A DNA stretch of 36,375 bases from Pseudomonadota bacterium (GTDB lineage: Bacteria > Pseudomonadota > Gammaproteobacteria > UBA5335): the NCBI GenBank assembly GCA_034189865.1, contig JAXHTV010000026.1, positions 1 to 36,375 on the forward strand. The letters are read 5' to 3'. The position numbers and the translations under genes were made by a program. Below, in pieces: positions 8,323 through 36,375 of the stretch. The notes under the pieces were generated by a model. It had not been told where the DNA came from, did no database searches, and saw only the letters and a list, made by a program, of their open reading frames with translations. How positions within the stretch are numbered: the stretch's first letter is position 1; the number at the start of each line of letters is the position of its first letter.

Positions 8323-9738
8323 ATGAGCAACAAGAGCCTAGACGATCCTTTTAACCCGGATAGCGACCTGCGCCATGGCGTCGGTTGCGGCTGTCAACAG
8401 TGTGCGTCGAATCAACCCACCTCGATGAAATCCGAAGCCGCTGCAGCGACCGAGTCTGAGGAACGCCACGGGGAAATGACGACGGACGACATCATGGATC
8501 GCGCCGTGGAAAGCGCGCTGGTGCGTGGCATCTTCGGCCACAATGAAGTATCGCGACGCAACTTCATGAAGCTGGTCGGCGGCGGTTTAGCGGCTTCCGT
8601 ACTGGGCAGTATCCTGCCGCTGAATGATGTTAAAGCGGCAGTGAAAGACAAGCTCGGCAAGCCGGAAAAATCCAAACTCAAGGTCGGCTTCGTGCCCATC
8701 ACCTGTGCGACACCGATCATCATGGCCCACCCCATGGGTTTCTACAGTAAGTACGGTCTGGATGTAGACGTCATCAAGACTGCCGGCTGGGCGGTGTCCC
8801 GCGACAAGTCCATCAACAAGGAATACGACGCGGCGCACATGCTGACACCGATGCCGTTGGCTATGTCCATGGGCGCCGGCTCCACCGCGATGCCGTTCAT
8901 CATGCCGGCGGTTGAGAATATCAACGGCCAGGCCATTACCCTGCACAACAAGCACAAGGACAAGCGCGATCCCAAGCAATGGAAAGGCTTCAAGTTCGGT
9001 GTGCCGTTCGAATATTCCATGCATAACTTTTTGTTGCGCTACTACGTGGCGGAGCACGGACTCGATCCCGACCAAGACATCCAGATCCGTGTCGTACCGC
9101 CACCGGAAATGGTCGCCAACCTGCGCGCCGGGAACCTCGACGGTTACCTGTCACCGGATCCGTTCAACCAGCGTGCAGTGTGGGAAAAGATCGGCTTTAT
9201 TCACATGCTCACCAAGGAAATTTGGGACGGGCATCCCTGCTGTGCCTTCGCCACCAGTGCCGAGTTCGCTCAGCAAATGCCGAATGCCTACGGGGCGCTT
9301 TTCAAGTCCATCGTCGATGCCACGCATTTTTCATCGAAGCAGGATAATCGCAAGGATATCGCCAAAGCGATTGCACCGAAGAACTACCTCAACCAACCGG
9401 TACCGGTACTGGAACAGGTGCTCACCGGCCGGTACGCGGACGGTCTCGGCAATGTGATGAACGTGCCCGATCGCATCGACTTCGATCCCTTCCCGTGGCA
9501 CTCCATGGCGGTGTGGATTCTCACGCAGATGAAACGCTGGGGATACATCAAGGGCGATGTCGACTACCAGGCGATTGCCGAGGAAGTCTACCTGGCGGCC
9601 GACTGCGGCAAGCTGATGAAAGAACTGGGTTACGAGCCGCCGAAAACCACCTATGAGAATTACACCATCATGGGCAAGGAGTTCGACTACACCCAGCCTG
9701 AACAGTATGCCAAGAGCTTTGCCATTACGAGGGCATAA
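8323..9738 (+). CDS. cynA: Tat-exported cyanate/nitrate-type ABC transporter substrate-binding protein
   Basis: This is the periplasmic binding protein of a CmpA/NrtA-family importer, here most likely for cyanate because cyanase closes the operon. ATG 8323 (471 residues) has GAGG upstream; an upstream ATG at 8257 lacks support. The N-terminus is unusual: about 75 residues with a cysteine cluster (GVGCGCQQCASN, 19-30) precede the Tat signal SRRNFMK (77-83) and its hydrophobic core. The binding domain follows, with the family-typical KVGFVPITCATPIIMA start, the GVPFEYSMHNFLLRYY stretch and SPDPFNQRAVW. The gene is followed two bases later by the permease gene. Tat export implies folding or cofactor loading before export. 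Nitrate, nitrite or bicarbonate are alternative ligands that sequence alone cannot exclude. Confidence 0.88.
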   Translation: MSNKSLDDPFNPDSDLRHGVGCGCQQCASNQPTSMKSEAAAATESEERHGEMTTDDIMDRAVESALVRGIFGHNEVSRRNFMKLVGGGLAASVLGSILPLNDVKAAVKDKLGKPEKSKLKVGFVPITCATPIIMAHPMGFYSKYGLDVDVIKTAGWAVSRDKSINKEYDAAHMLTPMPLAMSMGAGSTAMPFIMPAVENINGQAITLHNKHKDKRDPKQWKGFKFGVPFEYSMHNFLLRYYVAEHGLDPDQDIQIRVVPPPEMVANLRAGNLDGYLSPDPFNQRAVWEKIGFIHMLTKEIWDGHPCCAFATSAEFAQQMPNAYGALFKSIVDATHFSSKQDNRKDIAKAIAPKNYLNQPVPVLEQVLTGRYADGLGNVMNVPDRIDFDPFPWHSMAVWILTQMKRWGYIKGDVDYQAIAEEVYLAADCGKLMKELGYEPPKTTYENYTIMGKEFDYTQPEQYAKSFAITRA

Positions 9739-9740
9739 CT

Positions 9741-10568
9741 GTGCAGAACCTTCGCCTACGTGCGGCGATCCTGTCGCTGCTATTTCTCACCGTTTTTCTT
9801 GGTACCTGGGAGCTGGTCAACCAACCGCCGGAAACCAAGGAAGCGTTGACGGAATACGAGATGCTCATGGGGGGCAGCGCGCCGCACGCGCGCGTGCCCA
9901 ACCCGTCCGAAATCGGCGCACTGGCCATCGAGGAGCTCAGCGATCCGTTCTATGACAAGGGGCCAAACGACAAGGGTATCGGCCTGCAATTGCTGTATTC
10001 GTTGAAGCGCGTGATGTCCGGCTACGCGTTGGCGGCCCTGGTGGCGATTCCGGTGGGTTTTCTAATCGGCATGTCGCCGTTGATGCAAAAGGCGTTGGAC
10101 CCGTTTATTCAGATACTCAAACCCATTTCGCCACTGGCATGGATGCCGCTGGCTTTATTCATCCTCAAGGATTCGGAAGTGTCTTCCGTGTTCGTGATTT
10201 TTATCTGTTCCATCTGGCCCATGCTGATCAATACCGCCTTCGGTGTCAGCTCGGTGAAAAAAGATTACATCAATGTGGCACGCACCCATGAACTGAGTCG
10301 CTTGCGTACCGCCTTTCTGGTGATTCTGCCGGCGGCGGCGCCCACCATTCTCACCGGTATGCGTATTTCCATCGGCATCGCTTGGCTGGTGATCGTCGCC
10401 GCGGAAATGCTGGTGGGCGGCACCGGTGTTGGTTACTACGTGTGGAACGAGTGGAACAACCTGGACCTGACCAGTGTGGTGTTCTCCATCCTGATGATCG
10501 GCGTGGTGGGCATGATGCTCGACCTGATCCTCGCCCATGCCACCAAACTCGTGCAGTACGTGGAATAA
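9741..10568 (+). CDS. cynB: Cyanate/nitrate ABC transporter permease (NrtB/SsuC-type)
   Basis: This is the inner-membrane permease of the importer, 275 residues, with about six spans after an N-terminal anchor and a periplasmic stretch (30-80). The ABC permease coupling loop is readable near residues 170-200 (NVARTHELSRLRTAFLVILPAAAP), giving the EAA-like helix that docks on the ATPase. Further family features are PISPLAWMPLALF and GTGVGYYVWNEWNNLDL. The start is a GTG two bases after the cynA stop and the gene ends three bases before cynD, so translation is probably coupled. The name follows the cyanase-linked cynABD arrangement; by sequence alone it is simply the NitT/TauT permease family. 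Confidence 0.88.
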   Translation: MQNLRLRAAILSLLFLTVFLGTWELVNQPPETKEALTEYEMLMGGSAPHARVPNPSEIGALAIEELSDPFYDKGPNDKGIGLQLLYSLKRVMSGYALAALVAIPVGFLIGMSPLMQKALDPFIQILKPISPLAWMPLALFILKDSEVSSVFVIFICSIWPMLINTAFGVSSVKKDYINVARTHELSRLRTAFLVILPAAAPTILTGMRISIGIAWLVIVAAEMLVGGTGVGYYVWNEWNNLDLTSVVFSILMIGVVGMMLDLILAHATKLVQYVE

Positions 10569-10571
10569 CTT

Positions 10572-11519
10572 ATGAGCACATATTTTCTCAATGCACAGGG
10601 ACTCACCAAATCGTTTCCCGCACCGCGGGGCGCCGAGCCGTTGACGGTGTTCGACAACATCAACTTCGGCGTCGACAAGGGTGAATTCGTCTGCATCATC
10701 GGTCACTCCGGTTGCGGAAAATCCACCATTCTCAACATCCTCGCCGGTCTCGATCAGGCCAGTAGCGGTGTGGTGTTAATGGAAAACAAAGAAGTCGCCG
10801 GGCCCAGCCTGGACCGCGGCGTGGTGTTCCAGAACTACAGTCTGCTGCCGTGGATATCCACGCTGAAGAACATCACCTTCGCGGTGAAATCGCGCTTTCC
10901 GAAATTCAGCAAGCAGCAGGTGCTCGACCACAGCATGAAGTACATCGAAATGGTGGGGCTGAAAGGTGCCGAACAGCGCAAACCGTCCCAGTTGTCAGGT
11001 GGCATGCGCCAGCGTGTGAGCATCGCCCGTGCCTTCGCGATCGAACCGAAACTGTTGCTACTGGATGAGCCTTTCGGCGCACTGGACGCATTGACGCGCG
11101 GCATGATCCAGGATGAGCTGGTGAATATTTGCGGCCAGACGACGCAGACCGTGTTCATGATTACCCACGATGTGGACGAAGCCATCCTGCTGGCCGATCG
11201 CATCCTGCTGATGACCAATGGTCCGCATGCCCAGATTGCCGAGTCGGTACTGATCGACATCCCCAAGCCGCGCAATCGTACCGACATCATTCATCACAAG
11301 AACTATTACCCGATCCGCAATCATATCGTCGACTTTCTGGTGAAACGTTCGAAAGAGCTGTCACACCCGGAACAACGTGAAAAGCGGGTCACCCGGACCG
11401 ACAGCGGTTTGCGATATCCGCCGGAAGTGAATCCGGCCACCGGATCGGTACAGGAAGTTTCCCTTCCGCATGTGGACGAGCAGGCGGAAATTGAGACAAA
11501 CGTCGTCAACTTGCAGTAA
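10572..11519 (+). CDS. cynD: Cyanate/nitrate ABC transporter ATPase (NrtD-type)
   Basis: This is the ATP-hydrolysing subunit of the importer, 315 residues. Walker A is GHSGCGKST (44-52), the Q-loop lies in [11 protein letters not shown], the signature is LSGGMRQRV, Walker B is [12 protein letters not shown] and the switch histidine is in MITHDVDEA. The C-terminus is about 50 residues longer than a minimal SsuB/NrtD ATPase (from about 265), is charged and low in complexity, and has no recognised domain. The gene begins three bases after the permease stop and is followed 33 bases later by cynS, which has its own AGGAG ribosome site. Confidence 0.9.
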
Positions 11520-11552
11520 GCCTGACCAAGTTCAGCCATACAGGAGATCATT

Positions 11553-12050
11553 ATGAGCGCTACAGCCGAAACCCTGACCACCATGCCCAACAGCATGACC
11601 AGCTCTTTGATGAGCAAACAGGAAATGACCGAGGCAATCATTACAGCGAAAATCGAAAAAGGTCTAACTTGGCAGGCGATCGCGGATGTTCTGGATGTGG
11701 GCGTTGTCTGGGTAACCTCTGCCTGCTTCGGCAAGAACAGCATGCCAAAACCGCTGGCGGACAAACTATGCGCTACCCTTGGGCTGTCCGCCGAAGTAAA
11801 CACCGCACTGCAGGCGTTTCCCAACAAGGTCTGGGAAAAAGAAGTACCGCAGGACCCGGTTATTTATCGTCTCTACGAAGTTGTCGGTGTTTACGGCGAA
11901 ACCATCAAGGAAGTGATCCATGAAAAATTCGGTGACGGCATCATGAGCGCCATCGATTTTTCAATGCACATCGACAAAGAAGAAAACCCTGCCGGCGACC
12001 GTGTCGTGATCACCATGAACGGTAAATTCCTACCATACAAAACCTGGTAA
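11553..12050 (+). CDS. cynS: Cyanase (cyanate hydratase/lyase)
   Basis: Cyanase converts cyanate plus bicarbonate to ammonia and carbon dioxide through carbamate, acting as a cytoplasmic decamer. The 165-residue protein matches the family length. The N-terminal helical DNA-binding-like domain (about 20-85) is followed by the active-site domain. The catalytic trio corresponding to Arg96, Glu99 and Ser122 of the E. coli enzyme is present as Arg106 and Glu109 (IYRLYE) and Ser132 (MSAIDF). The ending GKFLPYKTW matches the family's typical C-terminus. CAGGAGATC supplies a good ribosome site before ATG 11553. As the last gene of the transporter operon it defines the locus as cyanate assimilation. 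Confidence 0.97.
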   Translation: MSATAETLTTMPNSMTSSLMSKQEMTEAIITAKIEKGLTWQAIADVLDVGVVWVTSACFGKNSMPKPLADKLCATLGLSAEVNTALQAFPNKVWEKEVPQDPVIYRLYEVVGVYGETIKEVIHEKFGDGIMSAIDFSMHIDKEENPAGDRVVITMNGKFLPYKTW

Positions 12051-22150: not shown

Positions 22151-23380
22151 TCATAGGTCGGTCCCGGGCGATGGTGAGGTGGTGGAGCTGAACAAGCTCA
22201 GTGGTAACGTCGCATGGCCAAACATCCAGTAGTCGGCGGCCCCTGAGCTTTTGAGTTCGACCGCTGCCAGATGGACGCAATTGGTTACCCGGCCGGGTGG
22301 CGGGTCGTCTCCCACACCCATATTGGTGTGACCGAATCCAGCTGGATGAAAATCGTAACGGTCCTTGAACCAGACATCGACGGTGCCGCCTGCTCGGTCG
22401 ACTTGGTAGTCCACCCGGTCGATTCCGCCGAATGCGAGCAGGAAATTCTCGTCGCTGTAGTTGTATTGGTGAATGAAAACCTGTCCCCGATCGGCGACAC
22501 CGATCGCCCCGGCGACCACACCGCGGGCGCCGGCATCGGTATTCATGAGATCGTCCAGATTCGAGTGTTCGACGTAATCCGCTCCTCCGCCCGACAGATA
22601 ATGGTCCAAATGCGCAATCGCCAGGGGTTTGCCGGACATCTCGATGCTTCTGGCAGCGGCGAGTACGTTGGCGGGAGACATCACCGCGCAGGCACATTCC
22701 GATTTTCCACGCTCGGTGGTGCCCACGGGGATCGGTACCTGTGGCAGGGGGGCGGGGGGTGTTACTGTGGTGGTCTCGCGCGCGCAGACCACCGCGGCAT
22801 TGGCTTGAACCGCGGCCCAATTTCCCTGCGCCGGATGATTGTGAGCCGGTCGGCCGGGTACGTAGGGATCCGGTGGCGGGGCGGGATTGGGAACCCGGTT
22901 GATACGTTCTCCGTGAGCGGCTTGCTGCACGACGTGGGTGAGTTCGTGGGCCAATAGGTGCCGGCCGGATCCGGAGCCGGCGTCAAACTCCCCGCGGCCG
23001 AAATAGATATCCGTGCCGTGGGTAAACGCCCGTGCATGCAGGGCATGGTTCATCGCTTCCGCGCGCCGGTCGGTATGAATGCGGACGTTGCCGAAGTCAG
23101 CACCCATGGCCAGGCTCATCTCGTCGCGCGCTTTCGCTGGCAGAGGCTTGCCGGTGCCTTGGGTGCGGCGGATCTGAGCCTCGAGGTTCGGGCTGACTTC
23201 GGAGGTGTGAGATGCGTTGTGGCCGAGGGCGGTTTGATCGGGGGCGTTTTTATCAGCCGACTCAAGAATGGAATTAACTTGGCGGCGCTGCTCAACGCCC
23301 GGCAGACGGGTTGCCGCCCCGGGATTCGGGGTTCGGGTGTGCGCCAATTTGGGTCGGTGGACAAAGGCGTGAGTGCTCAC
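22151..23380 (-). CDS. DUF4157 (eCIS core domain) protein with toxin-like C-terminus
   Basis: This 409-residue protein has the arrangement of cargo proteins marked for extracellular contractile injection systems. The N-terminus (STHAFVHRPK) is basic and low in complexity. The DUF4157 domain at about 78-154 contains MGADFGNVRIHTDRRAEAM, GTDIYFGRGEFD and the metalloprotease-like HELTHVVQQ (145-153). A proline-rich linker (about 163-220) follows. The C-terminal 180 residues match no family I can name; they contain AHLDHYLSGGGADYVEHSN and KDRYDFHPAGFGH (339-351), the latter reminiscent of the D-x-Y-D-F motif of colicin M-type lipid II hydrolases. The start is GTG 23380 with AAGGGG upstream; a longer frame to 23428 is less like the family. 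No injection-system gene is nearby. The C-terminal function is open. Confidence 0.8.
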   Translation of the reverse strand: MSTHAFVHRPKLAHTRTPNPGAATRLPGVEQRRQVNSILESADKNAPDQTALGHNASHTSEVSPNLEAQIRRTQGTGKPLPAKARDEMSLAMGADFGNVRIHTDRRAEAMNHALHARAFTHGTDIYFGRGEFDAGSGSGRHLLAHELTHVVQQAAHGERINRVPNPAPPPDPYVPGRPAHNHPAQGNWAAVQANAAVVCARETTTVTPPAPLPQVPIPVGTTERGKSECACAVMSPANVLAAARSIEMSGKPLAIAHLDHYLSGGGADYVEHSNLDDLMNTDAGARGVVAGAIGVADRGQVFIHQYNYSDENFLLAFGGIDRVDYQVDRAGGTVDVWFKDRYDFHPAGFGHTNMGVGDDPPPGRVTNCVHLAAVELKSSGAADYWMFGHATLPLSLFSSTTSPSPGTDL

Positions 23381-23693
23381 CGTAAATTTGCCCCTTGCTC
23401 GATCGGAATGTGACCGTAATTGCTGCATTGTAGGTGTTCATTTGCAGGCCGAAAAGATGTTCCAAAAAACGGTTTTTTCTCGTGGGCTTTCCCCTGCGTG
23501 TTGGGTGCTCCCGGATAGAAGAAATTTGTGTGTGACGGCGGTGGGTTATCAACGTCCGGCCGATGGTGTTAGTCGGATGACATTGCCGTTGACATCGGCG
23601 GATTTAGGCTGACAATACCGCCCCACGGGTCAGATGCTAACGTTCGGCTTTTTCCCGGCGTTGATACTGTTAGCCACTTTCGGTGCGTGAAAA
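23381..23693. other. Divergent promoter region, no gene seen
   Basis: This gap separates the minus-strand DUF4157 gene from the plus-strand channel gene. It should hold both promoters, but I see no strong -35/-10 pair or palindrome I would defend. Confidence 0.4.
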
Positions 23694-26600
23694 ATGGGAC
23701 ATACAGTTTATCGTCCAGCCTGGCTGATCCTGTGTGCGGTATTGCTTTGTGCCGCAGGAATGGGCCTGGCGACAGCGCGAGATGACAATACCAACGCGCG
23801 TAGAGTGTCACTCGCCGAGGCACGCGCTCAAGTTGTTCGCGAGCAGGAGGAGCTTGCGCGACGGATTACCTCGCTGGAAGCGATCAACTCGCCGACAGAG
23901 GATCAAAAGACTGACCTGTCGTGGCTGCTGTTGGCTCGAGATTACATTCAAAAGAGCGTGACGTCCGTCGACCGCACGCTGGATTTCCTTCAAACCATCC
24001 AGGCGGCACCCACACAGCTACGCGCCATCGAAACTGCGCTGGCAGCACCTATCCCCGAAGACGCCGTCGATTTCGATTCCACATCGCCTTTGGATCGCGT
24101 GGCGTCCGAATTGGAGACGCGGCGTGAAAAGCTGGAAGCTGCACGGCGGACACGCGCTGAGTTAGAGGCCGAGACGACCCGGCGTTATGATCGGCAAAAC
24201 AAGATTTCGGACGAGGTCGCCACGGCCCGTCGCCGGCTTGATGAGATCAACGACATGTTGCCGGTAGCGGCCGAAATTTCGGGTCAAATGCGAACCGATG
24301 CTCGCACTTGGGCGTTGTGGGCAGAGCAGCTTTATCTCCGACACTTTTTGGATGAGTTGGATCAAGAGTCCAAAAGCTACGATGTCCGGCGCGAGCTGTT
24401 GCGTTCCAGGCGGCAGTTGGCCGAGCGAGAGTTGCTGATTGCGGATCAGCGATTCAAACACATGGAGCAACTGGCGAATCGTTTGCGGACGGAGGCTGGC
24501 CTTGAGGTCATGCAGGCGGCTGGTGCGGCCAGCGAGGCGGCCGCCAATGCCCACCCGTTGGTCCGCGAGATCCTGTTTGAGAACCAGCAATTGGCCACGG
24601 AAATGGCTGATGTGCTGGCCATCAGTGCCCAGCGCAGCTTGGATAAACAGTCGCTCGATGCGCGGCTGAACGCGGTACAGCGCAACTTCGAGAGTACCAA
24701 GGAAAAGGTGGCCCAGATCGGGTTGACCGATGCGATCGGCCTGAAGCTCCGAAATGACCTGAACCAACTCCCCGATCTTCGTCGTTTCACTGTTCAACTC
24801 AAGCACAGTCGGGAAGAAATCAATCGGGTTCAGCTCCGACGCATGGAATTGGAAGACCGCTTGTTGGGGCTGGTGGATTTGAAGCGTGTCGCGCGGGACC
24901 GGGTTGAGAACGCCGGCGAGCGGATTCCCGATGACCAGAGGGAGCAGCTGATTGCCAGCGTCTACGAGACTCTCACTGAGCAGAAAGAGCGCTATCTCAA
25001 CGAGTTGATTCGGGCATACGATATTCTGTTTGAAAAATATCTGTATCCCATGATGGAAGCGGAGCGTCGCTTCGTTGAGGTGGTGGAGCAGTACAAAGCA
25101 TTTATTGATTCACGCGTTTTATGGATTCAAAGCGCACCCCCATTGTCGCTCCAAGACTTTGGCCGTGGAAATCGAGGCTTGTCCTGGCTAGCCGAGGGAT
25201 CGTCTTGGCAACGCGTGTTCGACGGCGTGCAATCCGATGTTCAGCAACAACCCGTGACAGTGATCGCGCCGTTCGTGTTGGTGTTGATGTTGTTCGCGGG
25301 TCGCGGAAGATTTAGAAAAACTCTGGTGCAACTCGGTGATGCCAAAACGAAGGCGGACGAGGGGAGAATTGTCGATACCCTGCGCGCGTTGGCCGTGACC
25401 GTTTTCCTGGCCGCTCCGTGGCCTGTCCTGATCTATGTGGTGGCCTGGCATATCAAAGAGGCGGGTGAGGATCCGATCTTTGCCGGGGCGCTTTCGTCGG
25501 GCCTAACGGCGGTCGCAGAGCTACTGTTCGCCGGCCTTTTGTTACGTCGGTTGGGTGAGCGGCACGGCGTGGGCGAAGGCCATTTTCAATGGCGTCGCAG
25601 CAGCTTGGATTTGGTGAGAAAGCAGCTCATTCGGTTTCTTCCATTCGCGTTGCCTTTGGTATTCGTCGTCGCAGTGGTGTTGGAACAACCGACCCAGTCT
25701 TACCGGGATTCTTTGGGTCGTTACGCATTCGTCTTGTTGATGATCGGCGTTGCCGGTTTGGTCTTTCGCCTTTTGCATCCGCGACGCGGATTGCCGCGGT
25801 ATTATCTTGAAACGCATGCCGGCAGCTGGGTGGATCGCCTCAGTAGCATTTGGTTTCTTGGTGTTTTGCTCGTTCCGGCTGGTTTGGCGTTTGCGTCGGC
25901 CGGGGGGTATGCGTACACGGCGGTGCAACTTGCCTTGTATTGGAAGGCGACGTTTTGGCTGCTTTTAGCCGTGTCCATTGGTCGGGCGATGCTGCTTCGT
26001 TGGTTGAATATCGAAGAGCGAAAACTGGCCGTGGAACAGTGGCGTAAACGCATGCAGTCGGAAGAGGGCGGAAGCATCATCGCTCCCGGCGACGCCGAAC
26101 GGCACGGCACCGCAGAGCCGGAGCTCAACCTTACCCACGTCAGTACGCAGACGGTCAGGCTGCTCAACAGCGTAGTGCTTTTGACGATTGCAGTGGGCGT
26201 CGTTTTTATCTGGTCAGAGGTGTTTCCGGCTTTCAAGTTACTGAACGACGTCGTGTTGTGGAGTTCCAGTTTTGTCATCTCGCAGGACGGCACGGATGTC
26301 ACGAGTTACGTACCTATCACGCTAGCGAGCGTGCTAACCGCGCTGCTCATTTTGGGCATGACGGTTTTTATCAGTCGGAATATTCCCGGTTTGCTGGAAA
26401 TCGCCATTTTGCAGCGGTTACCGTTTACTCCCAGTGCCCGCTATGCCGTGACGACCATTGTCCGCTATGTGCTGGTGATTGTGGGTTTGGCACTGGCTTT
26501 TGGCGCCATTGGTATCGGCTGGTCCAAGTTACATTGGCTGATTGCCGCCATCACCGTGGGCCTGGGCTTTGGTTTGCAGGAAATTTTCGCCAACTTCGTC

Positions 26601-27134
26601 TCCGGCATCATCATTCTCTTCGAGCAGCCCGTGCGTGTGGGTGACGCGGTGACCGTTGGCAACATCAGCGGGAAAATCGCGCGAATTCAAATGCGTGCCA
26701 CTACTATCACCGATTGGGACCGCAAAGAGCTGATCATTCCCAATAAGGAGTTCGTGACCGGACAAATTGTCAATTGGTCGCTGTCCGACACGATTTTGCG
26801 GATTGTGATTTCGGTTGGCATCGCCTACGGATCTGATACACAAAAGGCAAACGATATCCTGCTCGATGTGGCAAAGACGAATTCGAATGTGTTGCAAGAA
26901 CCGCCGCCCTCGGCCTTTTTTGCCCGCTTCGGCGAGAGTTCGCTGGATTTTGAACTGCGAGTTTTCATTCCCACTCCCGATGTGTTGCTGGACACGCGAC
27001 ATCAACTGCTGATGGAAATCGACCGGAAATTCCGTGAGGCGAAGATCGAAATCGCTTTCCCGCAGCGGGATATTCATATCCGACATATACCCAAAGGAGC
27101 GGGCGGTGATGTCGTTCTCGATTCCCCATCGTGA
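23694..27134 (+). CDS. Giant MscS-family mechanosensitive channel (MscK/KefA type)
   Basis: This inner-membrane channel opens on membrane tension to release solutes during osmotic downshock. The 1146 residues match the length of the large MscK/MscM proteins. A signal peptide (1-28) precedes a long periplasmic coiled-coil region (about 35-480). About eight membrane spans begin near residue 520. The MscS core follows, with a pore helix around 945-985 (ITVGLGFGLQEIFANFVSGIIILFEQP), then the beta domain with GDAVTVGNISGKIARIQMRATTI and IIPNKEFVTGQIVNWS, and the C-terminal alpha/beta domain. Which E. coli paralogue it matches best cannot be settled. It appears to be a single-gene unit. Confidence 0.92.
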   Translation: MGHTVYRPAWLILCAVLLCAAGMGLATARDDNTNARRVSLAEARAQVVREQEELARRITSLEAINSPTEDQKTDLSWLLLARDYIQKSVTSVDRTLDFLQTIQAAPTQLRAIETALAAPIPEDAVDFDSTSPLDRVASELETRREKLEAARRTRAELEAETTRRYDRQNKISDEVATARRRLDEINDMLPVAAEISGQMRTDARTWALWAEQLYLRHFLDELDQESKSYDVRRELLRSRRQLAERELLIADQRFKHMEQLANRLRTEAGLEVMQAAGAASEAAANAHPLVREILFENQQLATEMADVLAISAQRSLDKQSLDARLNAVQRNFESTKEKVAQIGLTDAIGLKLRNDLNQLPDLRRFTVQLKHSREEINRVQLRRMELEDRLLGLVDLKRVARDRVENAGERIPDDQREQLIASVYETLTEQKERYLNELIRAYDILFEKYLYPMMEAERRFVEVVEQYKAFIDSRVLWIQSAPPLSLQDFGRGNRGLSWLAEGSSWQRVFDGVQSDVQQQPVTVIAPFVLVLMLFAGRGRFRKTLVQLGDAKTKADEGRIVDTLRALAVTVFLAAPWPVLIYVVAWHIKEAGEDPIFAGALSSGLTAVAELLFAGLLLRRLGERHGVGEGHFQWRRSSLDLVRKQLIRFLPFALPLVFVVAVVLEQPTQSYRDSLGRYAFVLLMIGVAGLVFRLLHPRRGLPRYYLETHAGSWVDRLSSIWFLGVLLVPAGLAFASAGGYAYTAVQLALYWKATFWLLLAVSIGRAMLLRWLNIEERKLAVEQWRKRMQSEEGGSIIAPGDAERHGTAEPELNLTHVSTQTVRLLNSVVLLTIAVGVVFIWSEVFPAFKLLNDVVLWSSSFVISQDGTDVTSYVPITLASVLTALLILGMTVFISRNIPGLLEIAILQRLPFTPSARYAVTTIVRYVLVIVGLALAFGAIGIGWSKLHWLIAAITVGLGFGLQEIFANFVSGIIILFEQPVRVGDAVTVGNISGKIARIQMRATTITDWDRKELIIPNKEFVTGQIVNWSLSDTILRIVISVGIAYGSDTQKANDILLDVAKTNSNVLQEPPPSAFFARFGESSLDFELRVFIPTPDVLLDTRHQLLMEIDRKFREAKIEIAFPQRDIHIRHIPKGAGGDVVLDSPS

Positions 27135-27562
27135 GTGCGCTCGGTTGCCGCGACGTCGCGCTTGTGCGTATGCAACCACTCGCTGCGGTGAAGTATGTGG
27201 GAAAGCCGTAAATTAGGCGCTTTCGAAGGTCGGGGGCGCCTGCGTACGCGTTTTTTCGGTCGGGATTAATCGGCATTGATGCGAAAATTCATTCTGGTTT
27301 GCGATCTCGCATCCGCATGCTCTCCGACGCCCGGACCGGCAAGTGTCACCCACACTACAGCGGGGTTTTGATTTCTCGCTGAGGCATAGTGATAATCCGG
27401 TTGCAACTAACCCGTAACTTTTCCTTGATTCCAGTTTCCGGAATTGCGTTTTTCCTATCGTTTCCGCATTCGAAGTGCTGGGTTTGAGCAACGGATGTTT
27501 ATTGCTAGCTGCTCTAGGATTGGGCTGGTTCCACTTAACAATAAAGATATTTGGGGTGCGCT
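27135..27562. other. Intergenic stretch, nothing supported
   Basis: A weak hairpin (GAAAGC 27201-27206 with GCTTTC 27219-27224) may end the channel transcript. Otherwise I see no gene, RNA or repeat here. Confidence 0.4.
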
Positions 27563-30193
27563 GTGGAATTGCTGGTGGTCTTGTTTGTACTAACGAGCGT
27601 CGCGGCAGCCGCGGGTGCCGTGAGCGGAGTTCTTTCCATCTTTCGACTAAGAACTCTCAATAACCGGCTGCAACGGATTGAGCGTGAGCTAGCCGAGTTT
27701 TCCCGCCCTGTCACGCCGGCGACACCCACCGAGTTGACAAGCGCCCGGGCTCAGGGCGACAGGTCTGAAGACACGAGAACGTCTCCACCGGTAGGGCAGG
27801 AGGTACCGACTTTTGTCTCTCGGTCGGTTCTGCCCACGGAGGAGGTTGGCACGGCCGACACCGAGGCGACAATACCCGTTACGGCGAGTGTCGACACCGT
27901 TGTGCATCTGCAAACTCGCTGGATGATCTGGTTGGGTGGGCTATGCGTCGCTCTTGCGGGGGTATTCCTTGCCCGATACTCGATCGAAATGGGGCTAATA
28001 GGGCCGAAGGCCCGCCTAAGCCTTGGTGTACTGATGGGGTTCGCGTTGTATGTCGGCGCCGAATGGCTTCGGCGTAAAACCGAAGAGTCCCACCCTGCGT
28101 TTGCAGCCATGGCCGGCGGTGGCAGTATCACTCTATTCGCAGTCTTACTGGCGGCATTGCACCTGTACGCATTTCTCAGCCCCGCCGTCACCTTCGGGTT
28201 GCTGGCCCTGGTGGCCCTGGCGACGATGAGTCTGGCTCACATTTACGGTGCGGTATTGGCGGTCATCGGCATTCTAGGCGCTTACGTGGTACCGCTCCTG
28301 GTAGCCGGCGATGTGGACCACATCAATTTTTCTCTGGGTTACAGCCTGGTAATCAGCGCGAGTGCATTATTGCTAATGCGCTCCGTGTATCGGCCTTGGC
28401 TTTGGTGGGGATTTCTGGCGGGTGCTCTCGGTTGGTGGGCGATTTCGATGGCTACCGACATGGCTGATGGCGTTCGCGTTTGGTATCTCGCGGGGCTCGG
28501 CTACTTGGTGCTGGCTCTACCAACCTTTGACTGGAGTTTATCGCGATCGGAGACGGTTACTGTGAACCGATACCTTGAGTTGCTTCGAAATATCGTACGC
28601 GAGCCGGCCAAGAACCATCTCCCCCTGTGCTTTCTCTTGCTGATATCGGCCCAGGCGGTGTCCGTGATCGTAGAGCGGAATTTGGATGGAGCAATCGTGC
28701 ACTATAGTCCGCTGCTGCTACTCCTACTGCACTCAGGTCGGCGCCGTGAATCCCTGAGTGCCATGCCCTGGCTATTGGTTGTGCTGCAAATCATCGCCAT
28801 CGTTTTGGCCCAGGTGGTGGTGGTGGATGGAAGGTTTCTGCTTGTGCAACTCCAGCAAGCTGATGCCAAGCACCTGTTCGAGTACGCGGCTGCGACGAGT
28901 ATGATTTTGGCGTTTTTCTCCCTGAGAAACGCTACGCAATGTCGATTCGCCGCGCTGTGGAATTCCCTTTTGACCGTGGGCCCCCTGTTGCTGGTGGCAA
29001 TGGTTTACGCTTTAACTGAGCGATTTTCCGTCGATTGGCGGTGGGGGATTACTACCGGCATCCTGGGTGTGGCGTACGTCGGTATAGCAGCAGGGGCGCG
29101 CAAAAAGCGTTCAGTGGAGTCCTTGGTGGTATGGCTTTTCTTCGGCGGTCACTTCGCGTTGTCTTTGGCGGCAATGATGGTGAGCCGGAATGCCAGCCTC
29201 ACGCTAGTGTTCGCAGTGCAGATGATCTCCGTCAGCTGGATCATCACGCGGTTTCGCTTACCCGAGCTTGGCTGGGTGTTGAAAATTCTGGTGGCGTTGG
29301 TTGTTTTCCGCCTTTCCTTCAACCCGTGGATTATCGGCTACCCAACGGACGTGCACTGGTCGCTGTGGACTTTCGGCGGGGCAACATTGTGTTGCCTGGC
29401 CGCTGCTCGGCTGCTGAGGGTATACCCCCACTTGTCGAAGTGGACCGAGGCCGCTGCAATGCACCTGCTGGTGTTGACCTTGTGGTCGGAAACTCGCTAC
29501 TGGCTTTACGACGGTGCTGTGTTTACACCTCGGTTCACGGCTCTCGAGGCGGGCCTTTACATGGTTATGTTCGGCGCGGTGGGACTCGCTTACTATCGGC
29601 GCAGCTTAGTTAGTCAACATCTGCAAGGCTTCTGCCAATTATTCTCGCGGGTGCTAATTTCGCTCGCCTTACTTAATTACGTAATCATTTTGGGGGCCAC
29701 TGTCCTCAACCTGGAATGGGTATGGGGAGAGGTTAGCCGGACCCCCGTCGCCAATTTAATCCTGCTGCTATTCGGTATGCCGTTGTTTCTTGGCGGCATG
29801 ACCGCGTTAGTTTATCAGCCGCGATTTTATCGGGCGGCGCTGGTCTTCAGCGGTGTTGCCGCTTTCGTCTTTATCTCTCTGGAGATTCGGCACCTGTGGC
29901 AGGGAAGTATTCGCATGGATAGTCCGGCGGGTGATGGCGAGCTGTACACCTATTCGGCGGTATGGTTGTGCATGGCCGTAGCTACCATACTCGGTGGCGC
30001 TTGGTATTTCGGGCACGGTTGTTACCGGGCCGGCATGGTCCTACTGGTATTGGTGATCGCGAAAATATTCCTTGTGGACATGTCGGACTTGCAAGGGCTT
30101 CTCAGAGTGGCGTCGTTCTTGGGATTGGGTCTGGGCCTGCTGGGCATTTCATATCTCTATCAACAAATACGACGCATGCAGGCACGAGAATGA
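27563..30193 (+). CDS. DUF2339 multi-span membrane protein
   Basis: This 876-residue inner-membrane protein belongs to the DUF2339 family. It starts with one hydrophobic segment and a short coiled coil (FRLRTLNNRLQRIERELAEF). A Thr/Pro/Glu-rich linker of about 60 residues follows, then over twenty membrane spans from about residue 115 to the end. Diagnostic pieces are WMIWLGGLCVALAGVFLARYS, GLIGPKARLSLGVLMGFAL, and AGGGSITLFAVLLAALHLY. The function of the family is unknown; some members are linked to envelope or polysaccharide modification. The start is GTG 27563, with GGGG seven bases upstream; an in-frame TTG at 27551 is also possible. Confidence 0.88.
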   Translation: MELLVVLFVLTSVAAAAGAVSGVLSIFRLRTLNNRLQRIERELAEFSRPVTPATPTELTSARAQGDRSEDTRTSPPVGQEVPTFVSRSVLPTEEVGTADTEATIPVTASVDTVVHLQTRWMIWLGGLCVALAGVFLARYSIEMGLIGPKARLSLGVLMGFALYVGAEWLRRKTEESHPAFAAMAGGGSITLFAVLLAALHLYAFLSPAVTFGLLALVALATMSLAHIYGAVLAVIGILGAYVVPLLVAGDVDHINFSLGYSLVISASALLLMRSVYRPWLWWGFLAGALGWWAISMATDMADGVRVWYLAGLGYLVLALPTFDWSLSRSETVTVNRYLELLRNIVREPAKNHLPLCFLLLISAQAVSVIVERNLDGAIVHYSPLLLLLLHSGRRRESLSAMPWLLVVLQIIAIVLAQVVVVDGRFLLVQLQQADAKHLFEYAAATSMILAFFSLRNATQCRFAALWNSLLTVGPLLLVAMVYALTERFSVDWRWGITTGILGVAYVGIAAGARKKRSVESLVVWLFFGGHFALSLAAMMVSRNASLTLVFAVQMISVSWIITRFRLPELGWVLKILVALVVFRLSFNPWIIGYPTDVHWSLWTFGGATLCCLAAARLLRVYPHLSKWTEAAAMHLLVLTLWSETRYWLYDGAVFTPRFTALEAGLYMVMFGAVGLAYYRRSLVSQHLQGFCQLFSRVLISLALLNYVIILGATVLNLEWVWGEVSRTPVANLILLLFGMPLFLGGMTALVYQPRFYRAALVFSGVAAFVFISLEIRHLWQGSIRMDSPAGDGELYTYSAVWLCMAVATILGGAWYFGHGCYRAGMVLLVLVIAKIFLVDMSDLQGLLRVASFLGLGLGLLGISYLYQQIRRMQARE

Positions 30194-30593
30194 CTCCTCT
30201 GATCCCTATCGAAGTTCGGTAGTCGGCGCTATCGACTGGCGGTCCCCGGACATCTGGATGATTCCACAACGCGACCGGTACACCATTGCGCAAACCCCGC
30301 TTAGTGCCAACTATTGAGTGAAAAGCGGCGTGAGTCGGCAACGGAGAAAGGAATTGAGGGTGGATTTCGAATGATCGACCACGGCAAGATGGCGTACCGA
30401 CAAAGCCGGGGATTGTCGCATGAGGAAATATACAGCGGTTATTGTTGCTGCACGTCGCCTCGTCGTGGGACGGATGGGATTCCGGCGGGGGTGACTTGGT
30501 TGGGGAAAATTGTGCATTCGTCGGGCCCCGCTTTACCTTTGCTCATCTCGTGCCGATATCACTCTCGTTAAGGTTCACTTCCAGGAGCCCACT
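30194..30593. other. Intergenic stretch, no supported gene
   Basis: Short open frames here lack known motifs. The last 15 bases carry CCAGGAGCC, the ribosome site of the next gene. Confidence 0.4.
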
Positions 30594-31247
30594 GTGCGTC
30601 GCTTGCTGATCGTGTTCAGTCTGTTCTTTGCGCTTCAGGCCAATGCGCAACTCGTGATCCAGGATTTCCCGCTGCTTACGCAGGCTCCTGGCCAGTGTCT
30701 GGCTACCAGCGCTTTCTTGATCCAGAGCCATTTTGCTAGCGTGCCCGGCGCACCGACCGTCCTGTACGTCGATGGCGACATGCAGATATCACGCGATGAC
30801 GTCGAGCAGTGGACCGACGGGCTGGCACTGCCACATCGCCCGTCGCTGCGGACCCTGGCCGAGCGGCTGAAGACGTTACGCGTGCCGGACGGTCATCAGG
30901 CGTTTGACCTCGCCCTGATGTCTAAGGCGGTGAGTGGGCGTTCTTGGAAGAGCGTACGACAGCGTCGAAGCCGCCTCACCGCGATCGATGAGTACCTTGA
31001 TCAGGGCCGACCGGTGGTGATTCATTTGGATAGGCCGTGGCGAGTCGCCGGACACTACATCACTTTAATCGGCTATGAGGACCTGCCGGATGGGCGCGTC
31101 TATCACTACGCCGATACCTCAGACGCGGGTGCCGGTATCAAAACGACCCCCGCATCTGATTTGAGCGCGACGCACTACTGGTATCGTGGTAGCAGCGGCC
31201 TGCCGGCCCGCTGGAACGGGCGCTATCTGGCCGTCTGGGCACGCTAG
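30594..31247 (+). CDS. Exported papain-like C39-type cysteine peptidase
   Basis: This 217-residue protein has a signal peptide (RRLLIVFSLFFALQANA, cleavage before QLVIQ). Its peptidase C39-like fold has the nucleophile in QAPGQCLATSAFLIQSHF (Gln and Cys of the active site), His in AGHYITLIGYED and Asp in YHYADTSDAG. Relatives cut Gly-Gly leader peptides or act as general secreted peptidases; without an ABC transporter attached, the latter is likelier. GTG 30594 with AGGAG nine bases upstream is chosen, since the longer frame from 30510 would bury the signal peptide. Its stop lies two bases from the stop of the opposing Ntn-hydrolase gene, so the two transcripts run into each other. Confidence 0.8.
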   Translation: MRRLLIVFSLFFALQANAQLVIQDFPLLTQAPGQCLATSAFLIQSHFASVPGAPTVLYVDGDMQISRDDVEQWTDGLALPHRPSLRTLAERLKTLRVPDGHQAFDLALMSKAVSGRSWKSVRQRRSRLTAIDEYLDQGRPVVIHLDRPWRVAGHYITLIGYEDLPDGRVYHYADTSDAGAGIKTTPASDLSATHYWYRGSSGLPARWNGRYLAVWAR

Positions 31248-31248
31248 G

Positions 31249-32733
31249 TCAGGATCGCCGCTCGGCTAACTTGATGGCAATGATCCGCCGGAGGGCGGCG
31301 CGCTCCAGTGGCAATTGCTGGGGCAGATAGCGGGCATTGACCTCGATTGCGATTCGCAGCGCCTCGTATACATCTTCCCGCTCGGCGACTACGCCGGCCA
31401 GCCACCGGCTGTTGACGTAGGCAACCCGGCCAGCGAAGTAGAACGCCGCCGCAGAGGCACCAACGGCCGTCGCAACCGGCCCGAAATTACTCAGGGGCAG
31501 CGGGTCGATGGCGTAGCGCTGGAACGCATAGTCAGCGCCGGCCTCGGCGATTGCGGCGAGTGCGGCGGCGTCCAACTCGCCGGTCGCTTGCAGTTCAAGT
31601 GCCGCTTGTCTCACTTCGCTCGATAGAAGTTCCTCGATGGGTGCCGCGAGCGCTCGCACCCGTTCCATGGCCGGCCGATTGATGTGCGTATCCATCAGCG
31701 GGTTTGGCATCAGACCGTTTATTCCGCCGTTATTGTCATAGGCACCGAATTCCTTGAAGACAATGGCGAGGTTAAGCGGTGAAGCTCCGCCGCGGCGCAT
31801 TTTCATTTTTTCCGGTATCTGTCTTGCCGCCGGGAAAACCGGCGCATACACGCCCATCGAGGGTTCCCCGAGATTTGCCCACATAATCGTCAGCCGCGGA
31901 TCTTCGCCCGGGGCAACACCCTCGATGACTACACTGGCGGTCGTCTGGGCGCGACTGATGCAAAGGTTGGTTGGGAAACGCTCGGGTGGCGAAAGCCGGT
32001 CGTAGTCGCAAACGTCCTTGGTGACGATTTGCATCACGTTCAGTGGTGTAAGCGCACTCACCTGTCCGAGCACAGTCAGCAGAGCCGTCGCCCGGCGGCG
32101 TCGCTCCACGCCAGGATTGTCGATATAACGATTGAAGTTCGTGTGGTTCGCGAAGCCGCCCGGTGCCGCCTCCGCATCGTGAACGGTGTAGCGGACGGGC
32201 TCGCCGATGCCGCTTTGCGCTTCGATCATGATCGCGCCACCGTGGGCGTCCATGGCGACGAAGTTCGAACTGATGACGTCGATCGACTCAGCCGGGTCGT
32301 TCCAGCGTGCGAGCAGTTCCTCGAAGCAGGTGACGCTCATACACTCGATCAGCGCACGCTTCATCAGTGCGACGTCCTGGTTAACAAACTCTTCCACGGT
32401 GGTGTCTGCGTACACGCTTGCGTTCAATACCGCAAAGCCGGCTTCATTTACACCGCCTGAGCAAACGCGGGTTTGCGTCGGAAAAAAGATCTCTTCCAGG
32501 CAGACGTGACCGCCGATCTCCTCCCGCTCGCCGGGATACCATTCCAGACCTTGGAAAAAGCTGTTGGAATCGTCCCGATTCTTCCAAAGGATCGGGCGGC
32601 CGTCGGTCGCGCTAATGCCGCTGATGACGGCGACATCGCATGCAGCAGCGGGTAGCGCGGCCAGGAGTATCACGAGCGGTAGTGTGAGCCAACGGCCCTT
32701 TGCACTCTGCCGCGCCGCAATAGATCGAGTCAT
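31249..32733 (-). CDS. Exported Ntn-hydrolase with signal-peptidase-exposed N-terminal Cys (choloylglycine/C45-type)
   Basis: This 494-residue protein belongs to the N-terminal nucleophile hydrolases that cleave amide bonds (penicillin V or bile-salt hydrolase and acyltransferase relatives). The signal peptide ends LPAAA and the next residue, Cys32, begins the pattern CDVAVISGISATDGRPILWK, then NRDDS. This is the usual start of mature Ntn enzymes (Cys, then D-G, then N-R-D). Cleavage by signal peptidase would therefore free the catalytic cysteine without self-processing. Later motifs are GGVNEAGFAVLNAS and GFANHTNF. The last 120 residues are helical and not recognised. ATG 32733 is preferred because ACGAGG lies nine bases upstream; ATG 32742 abuts it. 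It is the last gene of the four-gene operon. Confidence 0.8.
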   Translation of the reverse strand: MTRSIAARQSAKGRWLTLPLVILLAALPAAACDVAVISGISATDGRPILWKNRDDSNSFFQGLEWYPGEREEIGGHVCLEEIFFPTQTRVCSGGVNEAGFAVLNASVYADTTVEEFVNQDVALMKRALIECMSVTCFEELLARWNDPAESIDVISSNFVAMDAHGGAIMIEAQSGIGEPVRYTVHDAEAAPGGFANHTNFNRYIDNPGVERRRRATALLTVLGQVSALTPLNVMQIVTKDVCDYDRLSPPERFPTNLCISRAQTTASVVIEGVAPGEDPRLTIMWANLGEPSMGVYAPVFPAARQIPEKMKMRRGGASPLNLAIVFKEFGAYDNNGGINGLMPNPLMDTHINRPAMERVRALAAPIEELLSSEVRQAALELQATGELDAAALAAIAEAGADYAFQRYAIDPLPLSNFGPVATAVGASAAAFYFAGRVAYVNSRWLAGVVAEREDVYEALRIAIEVNARYLPQQLPLERAALRRIIAIKLAERRS

Positions 32734-32747
32734 CGTGTACATCCTCG

Positions 32748-33665
32748 TCAAGTCGTTGCCGTCGGCCGCAGGATCGGCACGCGTTTCGCCAGGGGCCACA
32801 GCCCAAAGGGTAGGCGCCCGATGATGATCGTCGCGCTGTAGCAGACGCTGAAAGCCAGCAGTGCTGCCGATTCGCCATAGGGCGCGAACAGCAGCAGCAT
32901 GCCCGCTTGCAGTGTGCCCAGTCCGGCAGCCGTGATGGGCAGATTGATGATGATAAACAGTAAGGGCACGAGGCACAGCAAATCGGCCAGCGGCACCCGC
33001 AGCCCGAATGTGGGCATAGCCAGATAAAAGAACAGTACGAAGGTCGAAAAATAGATCGCACGGTCGCCAATGGTCGAAATCCACATGCGTGCGTCCGCGA
33101 TGGCGAATGGTTCCAGCAGTCGACGGAGACCGCCTGCAATACCCAGTCGCGCCAGGATTCGCACCACGGGGACGCACGTCAGTGCGCCGATGATGATCCC
33201 GCCGGCAGTCAACAGCGCGTAGCCGCGGGCGGTGCCTTGCACAAACACCGCGCCAGCAGTAGCAAGGATGCCAAGCGCTAACAACTCGGCCAACATAAAA
33301 AAGAGTAACAGGCCGGCAGCTCGTGGCGCGGGTACGCCGCGGCGATTACGCAAGTATAGGCCGATAGCGCCGACGCCCAACCCATAGTTGATGATCATCA
33401 GCAGATAGGTATAGCCCCGTACCGCAAGTAATTCCGGATAGGGCGCGTGAACCTCGAAGCGCCGAAACAGCCGCTGGAGATTGTGGGTTTCCAGCAGGTA
33501 CCACAGCATGAGAAATCCAGCCGCGAGTGGGATGTAGTAGATGAGTCGCGCTTGCTGGAGTGCTTTCGCGACCTCTGCTGGGTCGATGGCGGCCACAAGG
33601 GCGGCGACAATCAGACTGCCGACCAGCCAAGGCGCCACGCGAGCCAGGATAGACCGCAGCTTCAT
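32748..33665 (-). CDS. LPG-synthase/AglD-type multi-span membrane protein
   Basis: This 305-residue protein has about eight membrane spans and fits the 'lysylphosphatidylglycerol synthase transmembrane region' (UPF0104/AglD) family. Family features are SLIVAALVAAIDPAEVAKALQQA at the start, NLQRLFRRFE, and the late LLFIIINLPITAAGLGTLQAG block. Relatives flip lipids or move sugar or aminoacyl lipids across the membrane; some are halves of lysyl-PG synthases. The ATG overlaps the ligase stop (ATGA), so translation is coupled. An open frame extending upstream to 33989 lies within the ligase gene and is not protein-like. Here it may carry or flip the product of the neighbouring ligase and transferase; that is inference. 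Confidence 0.8.
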   Translation of the reverse strand: MKLRSILARVAPWLVGSLIVAALVAAIDPAEVAKALQQARLIYYIPLAAGFLMLWYLLETHNLQRLFRRFEVHAPYPELLAVRGYTYLLMIINYGLGVGAIGLYLRNRRGVPAPRAAGLLLFFMLAELLALGILATAGAVFVQGTARGYALLTAGGIIIGALTCVPVVRILARLGIAGGLRRLLEPFAIADARMWISTIGDRAIYFSTFVLFFYLAMPTFGLRVPLADLLCLVPLLFIIINLPITAAGLGTLQAGMLLLFAPYGESAALLAFSVCYSATIIIGRLPFGLWPLAKRVPILRPTATT

Positions 33666-34969
33666 GCGGCGCGCGGAGAAGGGCGTATCAGCGATTCGAT
33701 CGCCTTGCGTTTGATGCTCGCCGGTCCGGAAATCTGCTCGACCAGTGCCAGCTCGATCGACACCGGTTCGGAGATGACGTGCTCCAGCGCGGCCACCAGC
33801 GCGGCGCCTCGAGCGGCGTCGTAGCGGGGGCCTGGTACCAGGTCCACGCGTGCCTGTCCGAGCGCCGTCTGGACGAAGTGGAATTCGTCGATGAGTCCGG
33901 GATCGCTTTTGATGAACATCGTAAAGGTGTTCAGCAGCTTCAGGGGCGATAAGCGCGTGTCGTCGCTCAAGACGTAGGCGTCGTCGCACCGCCCTTCAAA
34001 GCTCTCCAGCAGGGGCAGACCGCGGCCGCAGGGGCAGCGGGCGTCGGTCGCCGCACGGCGACCGAAATCGCCGATGCGATAGCGGATGAAAGGCATCGCC
34101 GGACTGCGCAGGGTCGTTAGCACGATCTCACCGATTTCGCCCGGTGCAGCGGGTAGCCCGTGCTCGTCCAACACTTCCACCCACACATTGTCGGTGAACA
34201 GGTGGTAGTTTCCCTCGCGACATTGGGATGCCACCATCCACGTCTCTTCGGTGGAGTACTCGTCGTAGACCGGGCAACCGAAGCGCTCCGCGATGTAGGC
34301 ACGCTCAGCCGGCGTGGACAGCTCGGAGTTTACCGAGATGAACTTGAGCGGCATCCGCGCCAGATCGGACGGCGTGATCAGTCGCGCCAACTCGAGGATG
34401 ATCGAGGCGTAACCGATCAGCACATTCGGCCGAAACGCCACCAGCCTGCGAAGCTGCTCCTCAGCCGCCATGATGGAGGGGATATGCAACATCGGACTGA
34501 AACGGCCGAGGTCGGGAAGCGGGATCGGGGAGTACTTGATATACGCGCCGCGATACCAGGGTTTCAGGCCCGCCATGGTGTATACGCGCAGGCTGGTCGC
34601 GAGATAGAACGCATACGTTTCCGGCGAAAAAGCGAAGCGAGTGGCTTTACCGGTTGAGCCAGTCGTTGCCGATTCAACGCAGTCTTCTAGCCGGACGCCA
34701 TCGGCCACCAATCCGTCGGGGTAGTTGCTTTGCACATCGGCTTTGGTCAGAAAGGGCAGACGGTTCAGATCCGCCAGTCCGCGAAAGTTTTCGAGGTCGA
34801 TGTCGCTTTCGGCGAATCGCGTTCGATAAAACGGTACCTGCAAGCCGGCTTCTTTGACCACGCGCCGCAGCTGCGCGTCGACCCACGCTTTCTGCCGTTC
34901 AGGTGCCCACCGGGCTTGGCGATGCGTCTCCACCGCGGCACGCCCCAGGGCGATCGGAGAAATCGTCAC
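33662..34969 (-). CDS. PaaK/CapK-like adenylate-forming ligase
   Basis: This 435-residue enzyme belongs to the phenylacetate-CoA-ligase-like (PaaK/CapK) group, which activates a carboxylic acid with ATP. Motifs include TTGSTGKATRFAFSPE (the P-loop-like AMP motif), SVNSELSTPAERAYIAERFG and YDEYSTEE, and PFIRYRIGDFGRRA with CPCGRGLPLLESFEGR. The C-terminal Lys-containing domain ends near SIKRKAIESLIRP. The acid substrate is unknown. The start is probably GTG 34969, one base after the upstream stop; an in-frame TTG at 34996 would overlap the previous gene. It lies between a GNAT-like gene and the AglD-type gene. In CapK-like relatives the context is often polysaccharide or lipid conjugate synthesis. 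Confidence 0.82.
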   Translation of the reverse strand: MTISPIALGRAAVETHRQARWAPERQKAWVDAQLRRVVKEAGLQVPFYRTRFAESDIDLENFRGLADLNRLPFLTKADVQSNYPDGLVADGVRLEDCVESATTGSTGKATRFAFSPETYAFYLATSLRVYTMAGLKPWYRGAYIKYSPIPLPDLGRFSPMLHIPSIMAAEEQLRRLVAFRPNVLIGYASIILELARLITPSDLARMPLKFISVNSELSTPAERAYIAERFGCPVYDEYSTEETWMVASQCREGNYHLFTDNVWVEVLDEHGLPAAPGEIGEIVLTTLRSPAMPFIRYRIGDFGRRAATDARCPCGRGLPLLESFEGRCDDAYVLSDDTRLSPLKLLNTFTMFIKSDPGLIDEFHFVQTALGQARVDLVPGPRYDAARGAALVAALEHVISEPVSIELALVEQISGPASIKRKAIESLIRPSPRAA

Positions 34970-34970
34970 G

Positions 34971-35798
34971 TCAGATTCCCGTGCGACCAGGCGCAAGGTC
35001 GATTCGCGTGATCTGTTCGGCGTCGCACCACTGGCGGAGCATCATCTTGGCGAAAGCCGCGACCGTTTCGACTTTGACATCGCAAACGAACAGGAGGCTG
35101 TCCCCGCGGGTGTTGTAGTCGAAATTCGGCGGAAGCAGCGCATCGACGGCGGGAAACTCTTCCCGGCCGCGCGGTTGTTTGGTGCAACCGGGGAAAGCAC
35201 CTTCGACGAACCACGGCACATCCTGATCGAGCGGTCGATAGCCGAAACGCTCCAGGTAATCGCGTGCCACCGGCTCGAGCGCGTCGTGTGCGTCGAAACT
35301 CGTTGGCGCGAGGGCAGCGCGATAGCGCCACAGCATATCCATCAGAACCGGGCTGCAGGTTAGAACGACGCCATATGCGTGGGACAGACCATTGCGTCCG
35401 AGAAAAGCCACCAGTCCTTGGATTGCGAGCCAACCCGTTTTTGAGGAAAGACCCGCGCGGCGATGATCCGGGTGCACCATGGCTTCTTCGCCGACGACGA
35501 CGGCTCGGTCACCTTCTTGCCAGACCGTTAGCGCAATAAAGGCTGCCGTGGCGCCATCCCTTTCGTGAACCGCGTACAGCAGGAAGCTGCAGTTCGCAAT
35601 GTACTGCGCGAAATTGGCTTGAGGGTTCCAAGACGCCGCTTCCATGTGTTCACAACACCGCACGACGGGGTGCGACGTGGGATCATCTACGTGTGCGAGA
35701 TCAAGAGCGTAGTAGGAATAACCGTCGGCGCTCAGGAGACATTGCGAGTCGCTGCGGTTGGCCGAGGCGGAAGCCACTGGTTCCAGATCGATAGACAT
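34971..35798 (-). CDS. GNAT-fold acyltransferase, first gene of the four-gene operon
   Basis: This 275-residue protein is longer than a simple GNAT but has its core. EGDRAVVVGEEAMVHPDHRRAGLSSK (about 93-120) is the acetyl-CoA loop in a variant form, with strands and helices on each side. The last 90 residues (from about 185) add a beta-rich domain not seen in small GNATs. It may be an N-acyltransferase that uses the acyl group activated by the downstream ligase. ATG 35798 has AAGGAG seven bases upstream; a GTG at 35801 is the alternative. The next gene starts one base after its stop. Confidence 0.7.
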   Translation of the reverse strand: MSIDLEPVASASANRSDSQCLLSADGYSYYALDLAHVDDPTSHPVVRCCEHMEAASWNPQANFAQYIANCSFLLYAVHERDGATAAFIALTVWQEGDRAVVVGEEAMVHPDHRRAGLSSKTGWLAIQGLVAFLGRNGLSHAYGVVLTCSPVLMDMLWRYRAALAPTSFDAHDALEPVARDYLERFGYRPLDQDVPWFVEGAFPGCTKQPRGREEFPAVDALLPPNFDYNTRGDSLLFVCDVKVETVAAFAKMMLRQWCDAEQITRIDLAPGRTGI

Positions 35799-35801
35799 CA
35801 C

Positions 35802-36375
35802 CGCTCCTTAGTTCCTGAATACCGATTGCTACAAGCAAGGCGTACTTTGCCAAGCAAGTTTTGCCGCGTCATTACAGTGCGGGCAACGGCTCGTTTTGGC
35901 AGCTTGGGTTTCGCTACCGTGCATCCGGCGCTTGGAGAAGGGTTGAGATGATAAAATTACTGTATTGCCAAGTCCAGAGTTCTTGGATCCTCGGTAACCC
36001 TCCGGCGCTGTTTCGGCCGCGCGAATTTTCCTCCTAACCGACTCACTCGCAGTTTCTTCATCTCGCCGCGCGTTTATTGAGGCAAGGGTTGGCCACCCCT
36101 GTTGGGGGCGTCATTCGACTCGCCTGGGCCGATTTGACTTCAAGCATTTACGAGGTGTGGCGCGGCAAATCATCGTTGACCGGCGCGAACGACCATCGGA
36201 AAGGGCCGTCACCTACCGTGCTGCCGATTCCCATGCAGGTCAGCCGGGACATGTCCCGGCAGTTCGCGAATCGTGGCATTGCTCTTAAGAACGGATCGTG
36301 ATAGATGTGGCGCCGGCTGTGGGTATTTCGCACGCTAAACCCCGGGGACAGTCGCTTTGCGCCCCAGCGAACGAT
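35802..36375. other. Upstream region of the four-gene operon; paired direct repeats, no supported gene
   Basis: CAAGCAAG occurs twice (35832-35839 and 35851-35858), 19 bases apart, about 35-60 bases upstream of the operon start. The spacing of nearly two helix turns suits a regulator site. The rest (35,900-36,375) has a plus-strand open frame of 74 codons from a TTG at 36077 with no recognisable motif, which I do not call. Confidence 0.4.

Follow-up and report, generated by a model that had tools for sequence, protein, structure and literature searches.

A tightly packed operon of four genes, which is real, under selection and rare, encodes a putative GNAT-fold acyltransferase, a PaaK/CapK-type adenylate-forming ligase, a multi-pass membrane protein and a predicted exported Cys-Ntn hydrolase. 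The four enzymes may constitute a 'cap, carry, uncap' cassette, in which an amine is acylated inside the cell, carried across the inner membrane and deacylated in the periplasm; the probability of this reading is put at about 0.4. The operon lies in the window, that is, the whole stretch of DNA that was analysed, which is a single 36,375-base contig of a 2.9-Mb genome (72 contigs, 99.4% complete). The genes are four intact open reading frames in series on the minus strand, running from 35798 to 31249 in the order GNAT, ligase, membrane protein and hydrolase:

34971..35798, minus strand: putative GNAT-fold acyltransferase of 275 aa, in which RRAGLS resembles a CoA loop (by eye) and about 100 residues extend the C-terminus
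33662..34969, minus strand: PaaK/CapK-type adenylate-forming ligase, 435 aa, with a GTG start and a 1-nt gap after the GNAT stop
32748..33665, minus strand: PF03706 (LPG_synthase_TM) multi-pass membrane protein, 305 aa, with an ATGA overlap with the ligase
31249..32742, minus strand: predicted exported AAT/C45-related Cys-Ntn hydrolase, 497 aa, with an ATG at 32742 or 32733
30510..31247, plus strand: C39-like cysteine peptidase, predicted to be exported, converging on the operon end

The four gene calls and the tight arrangement described in the first-pass annotation were confirmed. The junctions are +1, -4 and +5 nt, read 5' to 3' along the genes. The secreted cysteine peptidase gene that had been reported to converge on the end of the operon was also found. 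Its product is C39-like (PF13529, 7e-6) and, like the hydrolase, carries one N-terminal hydrophobic stretch, and the gene ends at 31247, one base short of the operon end. The G+C content is 0.60-0.615 over the operon (31000-36000) compared with 0.46-0.60 in the remainder of the window. Pattern scans for promoters and terminators performed no better than on shuffled sequence.

The order of the four genes, whose conservation had been proposed as a check on the original reading, is kept in one relative belonging to another genus of the family (contig JAASSS010000128.1, locus L003). A second contig (L002, genome G004) is contained in this one. In JAASSS010000128.1 the GNAT and ligase genes are 1 nt apart and each of the next two junctions is a 4-nt overlap; the C39 gene, represented by its 3' end, converges on the operon there as well. 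The amino-acid identity between the two genera is 67% for the GNAT, 79% for the ligase, 78% for the membrane protein and 79% for the hydrolase. The corresponding dN/dS ratios (NG86) are 0.13, 0.13, 0.13 and 0.10; dS exceeds 1 and is therefore near saturation. All four genes are under purifying selection. Because the order and the junctions recur in a second genus and each of the four genes has a dN much lower than its dS, the operon is not a chance arrangement.

In genome G004, the edge of another contig (G004:C88; L070, positions 2-190) carries a fragment that corresponds to the N-terminal portion of the C39 protein. Beyond it, the genes are unlike those of the window and read from sequence as replicative-helicase-like and ribosomal-protein-L9-like. 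If both C39 fragments are parts of a single gene, the context of the five genes differs between the two genomes, as would be expected of a module; the two contigs are separated by a gap, and this is a hint only.

The linkage of the four genes was seen in two genomes of one family only. At the thresholds used, neither the four other genomes in the family nor three from its sister family carry the GNAT, ligase, membrane protein or C39 genes, and no similar operon turned up among the other order-level genomes or in class and phylum samples of 239-398 genomes, which overlap in part. The GNAT is absent from 239 phylum genomes and, apart from one short chance-like match, from 369 class genomes; that match (genome G198) falls inside a gene which reads as TolB-like and was rejected. 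No hydrolase homologue was found in 369 genomes of the class or in 398 of the phylum. Across 84,980 species genomes, a pattern scan, which as a method detects close relatives only, returned just JAASSS010000128.1. There were no homologues on viral contigs and no GNAT homologues on plasmids, and PADLOC matched no known defence system. The first-pass annotation knew of no described system with this exact set of genes, and literature searches likewise found no paper describing the combination.

The assignments of the second and third gene products are firm at the level of sequence. The ligase matches NF045666 (the DVU_1553 family) at 2.6e-42 and TIGR02155 (PaaK) at 1.4e-26, both below the curated equivalog cut-offs, and solved PaaK enzymes in the PDB (4r1l at 5e-31). 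By eye, it has the ATP loop TTGSTGKAT, RYRIGDFG and a C-terminal KRKAI, all of which are kept in both homologues, and it is predicted with confidence to be of the PaaK/CapK type. The membrane protein matches PF03706 over positions 1-296 of the 302-position profile (53.3 bits, gathering cut-off 33.4; 3.8e-14), which firmly indicates an MprF/AglD-type protein. The PF03706 family includes the flippase domain of MprF, and its members act on lipid substrates.

Distant kin of the ligase occur in 14 other genomes among the 398 of the phylum sample (best E 2e-33 to 1e-46). Their neighbours, judged by eye, form mostly exopolysaccharide-like clusters with glycosyltransferase-like and asparagine-synthase-like genes. 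This setting, and the lipid substrates of PF03706 proteins, would suit the acyl editing of a surface glycan or its lipid carrier, whereby the CapK-type ligase and the GNAT acylate a sugar or a lipid-linked amino group, the membrane protein flips the product and the hydrolase trims it outside. However, no glycosyltransferase or polymerase was recognised beside the operon, the similarity to the CapK-like proteins is distant, and no GNAT or hydrolase homologues were found near the distant ligase kin in the exopolysaccharide-like clusters. Glycan editing is regarded as unlikely.

The first gene product is probably a divergent GNAT extended at its C-terminus, an assignment that is weak by sequence. 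Its match to PF00583 (0.012, and 0.0042 for the copy in the relative) is below the Pfam cut-off in both cases, and a PDB sequence search gave chance matches only. When a low-confidence model of the protein (pLDDT 57) was compared to the PDB with Foldseek, nearly all of the top 50 matches were GNAT-type acetyltransferases, none of them at E <= 0.001. The joining of an acyl group to an amine is known from N-acyl amino acid synthases of the FeeM/TyzA type, whose clusters have other partners, namely the ThiF-like TyzB and the nitroreductase-type TyzC in M. tuberculosis (PMC10404671). The GNAT matched no FeeM/NAS N-acyl amino acid synthase model in Pfam or NCBIfam, libraries which may not cover every such synthase.

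A canonical MprF (LPG synthase) was considered as well and is disfavoured because its synthase domain, LPG_synthase_C (PF09924), is absent from the whole genome and unmatched by the GNAT. A related explanation is the modification and turnover of a lipid headgroup in a manner analogous to LpiA-AcvB, in which an aminolipid headgroup would be acylated by the ligase and the GNAT, the lipid flipped by the membrane protein, and the added group removed by the exported hydrolase so as to set its level. A flippase half of the MprF type next to a GNAT-type enzyme would resemble a split MprF. The synthase domain of LpiA is aminoacyl-tRNA dependent. Operons that combine synthesis with hydrolysis do exist: in lpiA-acvB, which acts on lysyl-phosphatidylglycerol, an MprF homologue and a periplasmic hydrolase that undoes the modification are encoded together (PMC13197417). 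The operon described here resembles lpiA-acvB in pairing the gene of an MprF-type membrane protein with that of an exported hydrolase. It differs in that lpiA-acvB has no ligase and AcvB is a serine alpha/beta hydrolase rather than an Ntn enzyme (PMC13197417). With the missing PF09924 domain also against it, headgroup turnover appears quite improbable.

The fourth gene product was more difficult to place. Its score against PF03417 is below the Pfam cut-off (14.6 of the 23.2 bits needed, 0.026), it has no match in NCBIfam, a PDB sequence search gave chance matches only, and an AlphaFold model built from two sequences reached a pLDDT of 33. Profile comparison was more informative. A profile of three hydrolase homologues aligned with AAT proteins from the class at 8.7e-7 and 91% probability in hhalign, and a profile of two homologues matched the AAT set (A6) at 2.9e-5; there was no match to the secreted choloylglycine-like set (A5). 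The nucleophile Cys, D57, G-x-N-E-x-G and TN are in register with the AAT proteins, as is R264 by eye, and K54, D57, N99, N107, N202 and R264 are invariant across the three homologues. Cys35 follows directly after A-A-A in the hydrolase and after A-L-A in the relative, in keeping with the A-x-A signal-peptidase motif. This is likely to be a signal-peptidase I site, at which cleavage would expose the nucleophile without a propeptide. These features support the assignment of the fourth gene product as a predicted exported Cys-Ntn hydrolase of the AAT/C45 type.

The connection to C45 comes only through a homologue encoded on a Parabacteroides plasmid, which is 30% identical to the hydrolase (2e-17) and matches the NF040521 C45 proenzyme model at 8.6e-10 (38.5 of 85 bits). 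The two proteins have in common C35, DGRP, WK-x-RD, N99-E, N107, TNF and R264. The plasmid is from Parabacteroides distasonis (L063, 4926-6134); its C45-like hydrolase is annotated as hypothetical and was the sole plasmid match to the operon hydrolase.

Cotranscription need not imply a common pathway, and the hydrolase could act on its own to scavenge or quench foreign amides of the penicillin, N-acyl homoserine lactone or peptide type. Exported AAT/choloylglycine-type enzymes do occur elsewhere in the class with no homologues of the other operon genes nearby, and the Parabacteroides homologue adjoins unrelated genes. On the other hand, two genera that are 67-79% identical in these proteins share the order and junctions of all four genes, so the set has been held by selection or has moved as a unit. 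An independent hydrolase is rather unlikely. In penicillin biosynthesis, a phenylacetyl-CoA ligase is found with the acyl-CoA:6-APA acyltransferase, and the operon similarly pairs an acid-activating ligase with an AAT-superfamily enzyme. Since the AAT relative is exported here, acyl-CoA is an unlikely substrate, and a hydrolytic role is the more likely one.

In the cap, carry, uncap cassette, the PaaK-type ligase would use ATP to activate a carboxylic acid, the product probably being a CoA thioester. Transfer of the acyl group onto an amine by the GNAT would give an amphipathic or membrane-bound N-acyl conjugate, which the MprF/AglD-type protein would carry across to the outer leaflet of the inner membrane. 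In the periplasm, the exported hydrolase, its nucleophile freed by cleavage before Cys35, would then cut the amide and so release the amine product or limit the build-up of the conjugate. Every reaction, the reaction order and the substrates are deduced from the genes, their layout and conservation, family resemblances and catalytic residues. The path of activation, transfer, crossing and cleavage put forward in the first-pass annotation is allowed at each step by the family assignments, the steps themselves being drawn from distant resemblance. The prodrug or acyl-conjugate cycle suggested there fits the parts, but so do other schemes, among them acyl editing of a surface glycan or a lipid headgroup.

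The cassette is favoured by the tight co-directional packing, by near-identical junctions in two genera, by dN/dS values of about 0.10-0.13 and, through analogy, by the precedents of PvdQ and lpiA-acvB (PMC6206403, PMC13197417). In pyoverdine maturation, an acyl cap is added in the cytoplasm and, after export, removed by the periplasmic Ntn hydrolase PvdQ (PMC6206403). The proposed scheme would follow the same sequence as PvdL, PvdE and PvdQ, in that the cap is added inside, the product exported and the cap removed by an exported Ntn hydrolase. Pyoverdine, however, depends on acylation by an NRPS and on an ABC exporter, whereas the operon has a stand-alone ligase with a GNAT and a PF03706 protein. 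In addition, PvdQ is autoproteolytic and heterodimeric, whereas the operon hydrolase is probably of the AAT/C45 type with its Cys directly behind the signal peptide. Against the cassette stand its occurrence in two genomes of one family only, the weak GNAT match and the low confidence of the hydrolase model. To our knowledge, moreover, a flippase role has not been shown for all PF03706 proteins.

If the parts act in series, they would reproduce, in minimal form and without an NRPS, the acyl-cap-and-remove logic of siderophores and peptide prodrugs, with a lipid-flippase-type protein in place of an ABC exporter. Such a system would be small enough for rebuilding in a laboratory host and is a possible source of a new conjugate. 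The logic of capping and uncapping is already known, and the parts come from known superfamilies. A bolder proposal, considered doubtful, is that acylation, flipping and Cys-Ntn deacylation form a new stand-alone pathway whose product, an exported metabolite or lipid with an N-acyl cap, would belong to a new class; the converging exported C39 peptidase could then be a fifth component.

Several other genes were recognised in the window, largely by reading of the sequence. A cyanate-type unit at 6022-12050 comprises a sigma-54-type regulator (6022-7989, minus strand), a nitrate/cyanate-like ABC transporter (8257-11519) and a cyanase-like gene (11553-12050). In the region 23694-30193, a large gene for an MscK/MscS-like mechanosensitive channel precedes one for a DUF2339 membrane protein (PF10101, 1.4e-118). 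DUF4157-type proteins often accompany contractile injection systems, and a 425-aa open reading frame with an HELTHVVQQ motif at 22151-23428 (minus strand) resembles proteins of this type.
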